Origin: an uncultured Flavobacteriales bacterium
Lineage (GTDB): Bacteria > Bacteroidota > Bacteroidia > Flavobacteriales > Schleiferiaceae
DNA: 64,000 nucleotides
Direction: 5' to 3'
NCBI GenBank assembly: GCA_913055685.1
Contig: CAJXKC010000005.1
Coordinates: forward strand, 1 to 64,000
The notes beneath the pieces were generated by a model that made no database searches, had not been told where the DNA came from, and worked only from the letters and a program-made list of their open reading frames with translations. A program made the translations under genes and the position numbers. Positions 19,888 to 22,271 of this stretch are shown here, piece after piece. Positions within the stretch are counted from its first letter, which is position 1; each line of letters begins with the position of its first letter.

Positions 19888-20258
19888 AACGTAAAACCAT
19901 GCCTCCGCAAGCTTCGGCAGGCAGGCAGTTCCTAGGAAGCACAGGAGAGGAGAAGAGAAGATGAGAAGATGAGAAGATGAGACATTGTCCTTTCCTGCTT
20001 TTGGTTTTAAAGCGATTATATTGTCATCCTGCCTGCCACGTTATACGTAGTTTACCTCGTTTTACGGGGACTGCCAAGTTATACGTGACCTGCCACTTTA
20101 TATGTGGCCTGCCACGTTTTACGTGGCCTGTCACGTTTTACGTGAAGCGGAGGTAAGGGCTTAGCATGATACAACAATTACCACCGAAGAAAAATTATTG
20201 TCATCCTGCCTGCCACGTTATACGTAGTTTACCTCGTTTTACGAGGTAAACAGGATGA
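19888..20258. repeat. Intergenic palindrome-rich repeat cluster with a 47-bp direct repeat
   Basis: No gene is visible. A 47-bp sequence occurs at 20020-20066 and again at 20197-20243. Both copies contain TGTCATCCTGCCTGCC, a CACGTTATACGTA hairpin and CTCGTTTTACG. Perfect hairpins with loop TTTTA lie at 20112-20126 (stem CCACG), 20131-20145 (stem TCACG) and 20228-20250 (9-bp stem). The second direct-repeat copy is enclosed by TCATCCTG and CAGGATGA, giving nested hairpins. The stretch 19925-20010 is an inverted copy of the module found at 29-118. Confidence 0.8.
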
Positions 20259-20287
20259 AATTGATTATTCCTTCGAAGCTTTTATTC

Positions 20288-20312
20288 TGTCATGCTGAGC
20301 TTGTCGAAGCAC
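20288..20312. repeat. TGTCATGCTGAGC-type dispersed repeat, uninterrupted copy
   Basis: TGTCATGCTGAGCTTGTCGA continuing AGCAC is an intact copy of a short dispersed repeat. Other copies are at 23083-23129 (with a 20-bp insertion), 23149-23174 (inverted) and 38428-38451. This copy serves as the reference for the insertion described there. Confidence 0.75.
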
Positions 20313-20333
20313 GGTATGTTTATACATTAAACC

Positions 20334-20395: not shown

Positions 20396-20516
20396 CGTGC
20401 GATATCTGCACGAAATCACCCCCTCCCTACCCAAAATCGTGCAGATTCCGCACGCCCCCCTTCCAAAACGTGCAGATTCCGCACAACTTTTTTGAAATTC
20501 GTGCGAATTCTGCCTA
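20396..20516. promoter_or_regulatory. Four phased 17-bp palindromes upstream of comEC
   Basis: Copies lie at 20396-20412 (CGTGCGATATCTGCACG), 20438-20454 (CGTGCAGATTCCGCACG), 20469-20485 (CGTGCAGATTCCGCACA) and 20500-20516 (CGTGCGAATTCTGCCTA, right half degenerate). Their centres are 42, 31 and 31 bp apart, that is about four, three and three helical turns. The promoter-like box at 20539 starts about 31 bp after the last centre. This looks like an operator array for one dimeric regulator binding on one DNA face. The regulator is unknown. The motif was not found elsewhere in the window. Confidence 0.55.
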
Positions 20517-20538
20517 GGAATTGGCCTATATGCTCCCT

Positions 20539-20546
20539 TACATTTG
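20539..20546 (+). promoter_or_regulatory. Putative -7 box of comEC
   Basis: TACATTTG fits TAnnTTTG. A TTG at 20521-20523 is only 15 bp upstream, shorter than usual, so a regulator may be needed. Transcription would begin near 20552, leaving about 97 nt of leader before ATG 20649. Confidence 0.45.
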
Positions 20547-20575
20547 TGATGTGCTTGAACCTTAACCTGATAATT

Positions 20576-20630
20576 AAGCTAAGCCGGGGAGTCTTTCCCC
20601 TTGATGAAAAGCCCCGGTCTTAGCTTTTTT
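20576..20630 (+). terminator. Leader terminator 1 of comEC (possible attenuator)
   Basis: AAGCTAAGCCGGGG (20576-20589) pairs with CCCCGGTCTTAGCTT (20612-20626, one bulged T), followed by a run of six T at 20625-20630. The GGGG at 20586-20589 could alternatively pair with the nearer CCCC at 20597-20600, so two exclusive folds exist. No gene ends within 650 bp upstream, so it lies in a leader and does not close an operon. Confidence 0.7.
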
Positions 20631-20648
20631 AGAAAAAGATTAAACCTG

Positions 20649-22271
20649 ATGGAAGTCCGCCGAACTGTTGACCTATACCTTAACAGTTTCGGCGGACTTT
20701 TTTTTAGCCTCGCCCTGCTTACTTTGTACTTGGTGCGCTACCAACAAGCCACTGTAACTCACCCTCCACGCGGGACTGGCAACTACCTCCTCGAGCTCAG
20801 TTCCAAAGAAGCCTATACTGTAGATAGCAGCCAGCATTACCGCCTTGGATTTCGCCTGCTGGAGGAGCCCGAGATTCAGCTCTTTAGTCGCAGTGATGAG
20901 TCCCTCTGGCAAAATATCTGGCCGGGAGCTAAACTTTACATCCAAGGTGAATGGCAAGACCTACCGAAAGGGCATAGTCTGCAGTCCTTCGATTATGGTC
21001 ACTACCTATTCCACCAAGGTTTCAAAGGTTATTTAAAAATTGAACGCTTGCGAATACTCGATGTACCCAATGAGAGCCCGAGCAAACCTTACCGCCAGTA
21101 TATCGTGGATAAAATTGAGGCCTGGCCTTGGACCGAGGATCAAAAGGGAATCTTCAAGGCCTTAATGGTGGGTGATAAAGGCGGACTCAGCCGTGAGTTG
21201 AAAAAAGATTTCGGGGCGGCCGGAGCGATGCACTTTCTGGCCCTGAGTGGCTTGCACGTGGGCGTCCTATACCTTTTACTAAGCTTTGTGCTGAGTCTAT
21301 TTCGCCTGCAAAAATGGCCCTGGCTCGAATTTATACTCATTAATGCCGCTCTATGGAGCTTCGCCCTCTTCTCGGGAGCCGCGCCCTCAGTTTTAAGGGC
21401 AGTGAGCATGTTTGGCTTTATAGCTTTGGGCCGACTCAGCCGTAGACCCCAAGGTGGCCTCCGCGCCTTGATTTTTTCCGCCTTTATCTTCTTGGGACTA
21501 AATCCCCTCCTCATTCATTCGGTGGGTTTTCAACTCAGCTATTTAGCTCTTTTGGGCATTCTGCTTTTCATGCCCAAGCTCGAACAAATATGGCGCCCTC
21601 GCTCGGCTTTAGCCTTTAAATTCCTCCAACTCAACTACCTCAGCCTCTCCGCTCAGGTCTTTACTTGGCCCCTTACCATATCCTACTTCGGACAATTCCC
21701 GCTTTATTTTGCCCTCACTAGTCTGCTCCTAATGCCCTTAATCAGCATTATTATGTACGGCGGAATCCTCTGCCTTAGCCTGAGTGAGCTACCCCAGGTA
21801 GGAGAATATATCTTAGAAATCTACCCACTTAGCCTTAATGCCCTCCAAGAAGTGGTGGCCTTTATTGAAGGCCTAGATTATTCAACTATTCAGGGTCTAT
21901 CGCTAAGCGGGGCTAATCTCCTACTCTTCCTTTTGCTACCCTTCGCCTTCATTGTGACCCGAAAATGGCGCTTACCTTATCTAGGCCTGCTGTTGGTCCT
22001 TTTTGGTGGCTATAAAATAGGCCAGCGTTTCCTAGAACCGGATTGGCAATTGAGGGACCATGGACCTCACCCCCCGATAAAGGAACTGCGCATTGCCGAG
22101 CAGCATTATTATTTCCATGAGCTGATCGAAGCCCAATTAAAGCAGAAGCAAGACTATTGGGATAAACTTGATAAGGAGGCGATTTTTATTCATGTCCATC
22201 AGCGCTATGTCGACTCCCTAATTCAATGGGACCACCAAGGGCTTCGTATTGCGCCAAAAAAAGCGCCCTAA
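20649..22271 (+). CDS. comEC: ComEC/Rec2-family DNA uptake channel protein
   Basis: Inner-membrane channel for single-stranded DNA in natural transformation. The protein has 540 residues from ATG 20649, with one N-terminal membrane segment, a DUF4131-type OB-fold region (about 45-150), and the ComEC competence domain with the family motif FLALSGLHVGVLY and about eight TM helices. A short soluble tail follows instead of a metallo-beta-lactamase domain. It is shorter at the N-terminus than many homologues. An alternative ATG at 20604 lies inside terminator hairpin 1, so I prefer 20649. A second terminator hairpin sits within codons 2-18. The 3' end overlaps the terminator of the convergent regulator gene. 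Confidence 0.85.
   Translation: MEVRRTVDLYLNSFGGLFFSLALLTLYLVRYQQATVTHPPRGTGNYLLELSSKEAYTVDSSQHYRLGFRLLEEPEIQLFSRSDESLWQNIWPGAKLYIQGEWQDLPKGHSLQSFDYGHYLFHQGFKGYLKIERLRILDVPNESPSKPYRQYIVDKIEAWPWTEDQKGIFKALMVGDKGGLSRELKKDFGAAGAMHFLALSGLHVGVLYLLLSFVLSLFRLQKWPWLEFILINAALWSFALFSGAAPSVLRAVSMFGFIALGRLSRRPQGGLRALIFSAFIFLGLNPLLIHSVGFQLSYLALLGILLFMPKLEQIWRPRSALAFKFLQLNYLSLSAQVFTWPLTISYFGQFPLYFALTSLLLMPLISIIMYGGILCLSLSELPQVGEYILEIYPLSLNALQEVVAFIEGLDYSTIQGLSLSGANLLLFLLLPFAFIVTRKWRLPYLGLLLVLFGGYKIGQRFLEPDWQLRDHGPHPPIKELRIAEQHYYFHELIEAQLKQKQDYWDKLDKEAIFIHVHQRYVDSLIQWDHQGLRIAPKKAP
20653..20706 (+). terminator. Terminator 2, inside the first codons of comEC
   Basis: AAGTCCGCCGAACTGTT (20653-20669) pairs with 20682-20699 along 17 bp with a single bulged A and a 12-nt loop, followed by eight T (20698-20705). 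This is a textbook intrinsic terminator. It begins 4 bases after the ATG, so a ribosome initiating there would block its folding and transcription would continue only when translation starts. Confidence 0.75.

Follow-up and report, generated by a model that had tools for sequence, protein, structure and literature searches.

Phased palindromic arrays in front of comEC and of the gene for a candidate regulator in a Schleiferiaceae bacterium

The comEC locus and its leader

The window, i.e. the whole stretch of 64,000 nucleotides analysed here, carries on its plus strand a comEC gene (20649..22271), whose 540-aa product matches the Pfam family Competence (PF03772, E 1.2e-50) and whose most likely start is the ATG at 20649. 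Upstream of it lies a -7 box of the Bacteroidota sigma-A type, recognised by its sequence (TACATTTG, 20539..20546, plus strand), together with a probable -33 element, TTGG (20521..20524, plus strand), assigned from its position relative to the -7 box. In Flavobacterium the -7 box spans -12 to -5 (PMC9723704), and with the box placed likewise the comEC transcript is predicted to begin near 20551. ATG 20549 was considered as the start of a leader peptide and dropped, as it coincides with the predicted transcription start and lacks conservation.

The promoter is preceded by four 17-bp near-palindromes, none of them assigned to a strand. Copy 1 (CGTGCGATATCTGCACG, 20396..20412) is centred at 20404, about -147 from the predicted transcription start, copy 2 (CGTGCAGATTCCGCACG, 20438..20454) at 20446, about -105, copy 3 (CGTGCAGATTCCGCACA, 20469..20485) at 20477, about -74, and copy 4 (CGTGCGAATTCTGCCTA, 20500..20516) at 20508, about -43, with the TTGG element 5 bp past it. 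The centre steps of 42, 31 and 31 bp described in the sequence-only reading of this locus can be read directly from the letters, as can the TAnnTTTG box beginning 31 bp past the last centre. The weakened right half that it noted in the promoter-nearest copy is borne out by the palindromy of copies 1 to 4, which pair at 5, 7, 6 and 3 of 8 positions, respectively, and its statement that the motif occurs nowhere else in the window agrees with our finding no other match there at up to 3 mismatches.

Two terminator-like hairpins are predicted on the plus strand of the comEC leader, namely GCTAAGCCGGGG...CCCCGGTCTTAGC followed by TTTTTT (20576..20632, z -2.3), and AAGTCCGCCGAACTGTT...AACAGTTTCGGCGGACTTTTTTTT, which extends over the first comEC codons (20652..20706). 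They are followed by runs of six (T6) and eight (T8) thymines, respectively, and each is preceded by AACCTGATR. Scanned by the same criteria, the rest of the window shows no gene with equally strong hairpins so near its start, and a search of the leader against Rfam gave no match, the best scores falling far below the gathering scores. In five genomes of the same genus (G001-G005) comEC has the same upstream gene as here, and four of them (G001, G002, G004 and G005) possess an equivalent hairpin and T run just before comEC, in different sequences, while in G003 the T run behind the hairpin is poorer. Since no further promoter would fit here, transcription attenuation in the leader seems likely.

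A second array and the comEC promoters of relatives

A scan of the 2.96-Mb genome (G000) with the 17-mer at up to 3 mismatches revealed one further array, 54 kb off (G000:C5:74126-74246) and directly upstream of a gene encoding a protein of 305 aa, P0001 (G000:C5:74302-75219). It again comprises four sites spaced by 42, 31 and 31 bp, and a -7-like box (TACCTTAG) stands 39 bp from the start of its fourth site, exactly the distance found at comEC; the P0001 promoter is without a clear -33 element. A two-copy pattern with the 31-bp step, allowed up to 2 mismatches, retrieved both arrays and nothing more from the entire genome, where a reversed control pattern at up to 3 mismatches gave 1 match in all. 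Since its sole other genomic occurrence precedes the P0001 gene, the comEC array most likely consists of P0001 sites. The same sites, in the same helical phase, thus stand at comEC and at the promoter of their putative regulator, as in an autoregulated array.

Between the two arrays, sites are identical at 59 of 68 positions (87%) and spacers at 32 of 53 (60%; Fisher p 0.0009), a difference which suggests selection on the sites. Copy 1 is identical at 11/17 positions, copy 3 has the same sequence in both arrays, and the same holds for copy 4, including its weak right half, within a region of 21 identical bases (CGTGCGAATTCTGCCTAGGAA). Beyond the arrays, the regions upstream of both have further repeat fragments in common (47 bp at 96% identity). 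Dispersed repeats of the GTCATCCTGCCTGCCACGTTTTACGTGG and GTCATGCTGAGCTTGTCGAAG types were also observed upstream of both arrays (window 20020-20330; L005 9660-10060).

Among the relatives compared, mostly metagenome assemblies, the same-genus comEC promoters appear to retain sites that are weaker and diverged in sequence but stay in register. At comEC of G000, G002 and G003, 31 bp ranked first among 62 spacings; in 6/6 genomes inspected, the start of a site-like 17-mer lies 38-39 bp upstream of the -7 box; and in a pooled test of the five same-genus relatives, with boxes picked by eye, the statistic was reached by 24/1000 shuffles, which gives moderate support to a modest conservation. Upstream of comEC outside the genus no 31-bp enrichment was detected.

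In G002, 31-bp pairs of the comEC motif (TTGCGTAWTRCGC) also occur upstream of a lipoprotein gene (219 aa) that is followed by a gene for a beta-helix protein of 1403 aa, and upstream of a gene for a 350-aa protein with a weak match to a type IX secretion tail; furthermore, a perfect single TTGCGTAWTRCGC site lies near a gene for a 249-aa secreted protein. These exported-protein genes (L293 4216-4872, L298 1629-2681, L297 488-1234) raise the prospect that, in G002, comEC may belong to a small regulon together with genes for exported proteins. In G002 we found no regulator gene with this motif at its promoter; like the lack of a 31-bp signal at comEC outside the genus, this speaks against the switch proposed below. 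In another genome, G015, a 31-bp TGC-N7-GCA pair (L135 1501-1544) was seen upstream of a gene for a 205-aa CarboxypepD_reg lipoprotein that resembles the G002 target.

The P0001 family and its operator spacing

P0001 gave no significant match in Pfam or NCBIfam, and as sole query in a first contig scan it retrieved no relative. It has five paralogs in the genome (six family members altogether) and relatives in 32/59 related genomes, and the wider family comprises 78 loci in named Bacteroidota and in a few Chlorobiota-labelled assemblies. An N-terminal HTH is recognised in family members as Pfam BetR (18/24) and HTH_3 (12/24), and by this family homology only an XRE HTH is assigned to P0001 itself. 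The conserved C-terminal part carries the pattern YY..D.P.F....P....K...W and is unnamed in every domain library searched.

An AlphaFold2 model of one family member, built from a 44-sequence alignment (pLDDT 91), provides the fold, which for P0001 is thus predicted from a homolog only about 21% identical to it. Residues 1-75 of the model match lambda CI, C.EcoT38I and P22 c2, i.e. the lambda/XRE HTH. Residues ~76-310 yield matches within the PLD superfamily at Z 7-9 (NucT, Nuc, FAM83, Zucchini, PPK1 and TrmB), where values of 7-8 would be weak alone but consistently point to one superfamily; further neighbours in the PDB list are PLD-fold restriction enzymes, and the list speaks only to the folds contained in it. 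Because the catalytic HxKxxxxD (HKD) motif is present in just 1/68 alignment rows of the family, the PLD-like domain is probably a sensor. Taken from the model, P0001 and its relatives would represent a phylum-wide, as yet unnamed family of Bacteroidota regulators that combine an XRE/BetR HTH with a noncatalytic PLD-like domain. An RRNPP/Rgg peptide receptor, suggested by the protein length, was rejected: the model has mixed strands and helices and is PLD-like rather than TPR all-helical, and ComR, PrgX and similar chains appear only at low probability in the Foldseek list (ComR <=0.25).

The 31-bp step recurs across this family. When any spacing from 18 to 79 bp was allowed, palindromic repeats fitted best at 31 bp in 22 of 138 family upstream regions (about 2 expected), followed by 30 (11 regions), 40 (8), 32 (7) and 41 bp (5). 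After clustering at 50% protein identity, 30-32 bp won in 16 of 57 clusters, against 3.9 +/- 2.0 in dinucleotide shuffles. The palindrome itself varies: TTTGCA-N5-TGCAAA is common, CGTGC...GCACG is found in this genome, the promoter of the G013 homolog has several copies of TATGC-N7-GCATA and that of the G014 homolog TTCTC-N7-GAGAA, both in 31-bp steps. As the spacing of ~31 bp recurs while the sequences differ, the comEC array may be regarded as exemplifying a general design of self-regulating operators, in which the spacing is kept and the sequence drifts.

The view of a phased operator array thus gains on two sides: the genome holds two arrays, both promoter-proximal and in identical register, and the second precedes the gene of a DNA-binding family with ~31-bp palindromes at its homologs. 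The sequence-only reading had named many 17-mer copies at random spacings as evidence against itself, and with just two arrays genome-wide it stands. It also asked whether the motif is confined to DNA-uptake genes; this is not so, for the other target is the presumed regulator's own gene. Of the scan of relatives with one matrix that it proposed, the expectation of a preserved spacing held, whereas the matrix itself would miss sites, as the 17-mer sequence drifts across species.

Some further palindromes came to light alongside these comparisons. A scan of 295 genomes of the class for TTGC-N7-GCAA pairs returned mostly coding or chance matches, the better ones including regulator promoters and three loci of G320 with no regulator nearby. 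In G320, pairs of the TTGCAAAAAATGCAA palindrome at a step of exactly 31 bp lie near three unrelated genes (L257 2341, L258 2346, L259 2170), possibly a multi-gene regulon or a repeat. Another palindrome, TATGCGTGCATA, is conserved among the same-genus orthologs of a single regulator (L099, L106, L109, L113, L116, and L048, where it reads TATGCACGCATA), ~170-200 bp upstream of their start.

A proposed switch for comEC and its alternatives

We propose, with a probability of roughly 0.6, that P0001 binds the array cooperatively and controls its own gene and comEC as a self-amplifying activating switch. P0001 dimers would bind the 17-bp palindromes, and since steps of 31 and 42 bp correspond to three and four helical turns, up to four dimers could line up on one face of the DNA, which would render occupancy steeply cooperative. 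By the same array at its gene, P0001 would control its own synthesis, while its PLD-like domain probably senses a ligand, as in TrmB. The proximal dimer, ~43 bp before the transcription start and beside the -33 element, would contact RNA polymerase and activate transcription, the self-amplifying switch would turn comEC on, and the transcripts would then have to pass the leader hairpins before comEC is read. Lambda CI activates from a position around -42, adjacent to the -33 element, and by analogy with CI at OR2 the position of the proximal site near -43 suggests activation here.

The strongest competitor, which we consider clearly less probable yet keep as the main rival, holds that P0001 binds the arrays but represses comEC and itself until it is freed by a ligand bound to the PLD-like domain. 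Repressors are frequent among XRE-family proteins, and in many family members elsewhere the palindrome starts ~26 bp ahead of the box and overlies the -33 region, with a half-site following 31 bp later, downstream of the -7 box (a GCA half-site at +31 accompanies 22/46 strong sites). This layout is typical of negative autoregulation and thus suits repression, and TTGG at 20521 offers comEC a possible -33 element of its own. The arrays at comEC and P0001, however, end upstream of the -33 element; the proximal site is placed as class II activator sites are, with the weakened half beside -33 identical in both promoters, and the lack of a clear -33 element in the P0001 promoter suits dependence on an activator.

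Two other readings find less room. That P0001 is merely a target, and that the protein on the array is a different family member, for instance the conserved paralog at C1:398535, or an unrelated dimeric regulator, seems rather improbable to us. The genome does hold six members to choose from, and paralog L048 shows TTTGCGATATATGCGTA plus another site at a distance of 31 bp, with a core like comEC copy 1, but the outer bases differ (CGTGC vs TTTGC), the CGTGC array is absent from every other paralog in the genome, and arrays at the regulators' own promoters recur across the family. Least credible of all is an origin of both arrays from a dispersed repeat without regulatory role, of the type of the hairpin repeats abundant in the same intergenic regions. 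Their location downstream of dispersed repeats and the fragments that their upstream regions have in common would fit such an origin; a repeat of this kind should, however, occur in many copies without fixed relation to genes, whereas just two promoter-adjacent copies in identical register exist in 2.96 Mb, their sites are conserved above their spacers, and equivalent arrays of unrelated sequence stand at homologs. Unless further copies hide in assembly gaps, the counts already refute it.

Returning to the activating switch, its closest counterpart in competence is ComK of Bacillus subtilis, an activator that controls its own gene by switch-like cooperative binding (PMC8170675). ComK promoters have whole-turn spacings, with natural spacers of 8, 18 and 31 bp, of which the 31-bp spacer also allows cooperativity (PMC8170675). 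The likeness lies in the control of the own gene and in the whole-turn spacing of sites, with cooperativity predicted for P0001. In contrast, ComK recognises AT-boxes and controls many genes, whereas here 17-bp palindromes in two arrays would be served by an XRE-HTH and PLD-like protein. We know of no relation between ComK and the P0001 family.

Lambda CI at OR/PRM resembles the proposed system in its XRE-type HTH, its palindromic sites and its autoregulation, as well as in the site near -42 beside the -35 region, where sigma region 4 is contacted (1rio is among the structural matches of the model). Its operators are nearly adjacent instead of 31 bp apart, its C-terminal domain is different, and no phage context was seen at the arrays. 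Archaeal TrmB, which is sugar-responsive, likewise joins a DNA-binding domain to a PLD-like effector domain (2f5t, 3qph and 5box were matched), and the homolog model shows such a domain without the catalytic HKD; TrmB, however, has a winged helix in place of the XRE-type HTH, and the present family resides in Bacteroidota. Streptococcal ComR (Rgg/RRNPP) regulates competence and has an XRE-type HTH, yet its effector domain is TPR-helical, unlike the alpha/beta PLD-like domain of the P0001-family model.

The passages available from a Riemerella transformation-gene screen list proteins for uptake and DNA handling but mention no dedicated regulator (PMC8459023), and in full-text literature, as covered by open-access papers, we found no competence regulator for Bacteroidota. 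With a candidate regulator and an operator common to its gene and comEC, the control of DNA uptake in Bacteroidota becomes testable, and the operator rule (palindromes ~31 bp apart, of any sequence) provides a way to locate targets of the family phylum-wide. If true, our model would represent a type of competence switch not known to have been described in Bacteroidota, with a second layer of hairpins. More tentatively, and with less confidence than in the switch itself, we envisage a family characterised by phased self-regulating arrays that within this genus was recruited as comEC activator, the hairpins adding the second layer.

A minor observation concerns the neighbourhood of these regulators. 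Members of a family of 249-aa proteins, 29-31% identical and with no Pfam match, are encoded close to P0001 and directly ahead of two paralogous regulators (L005 7346-8095, minus strand; L044 865-1539; L045 2161-2850; L056 1773-2222), and possibly represent a partner gene of P0001-type regulators.
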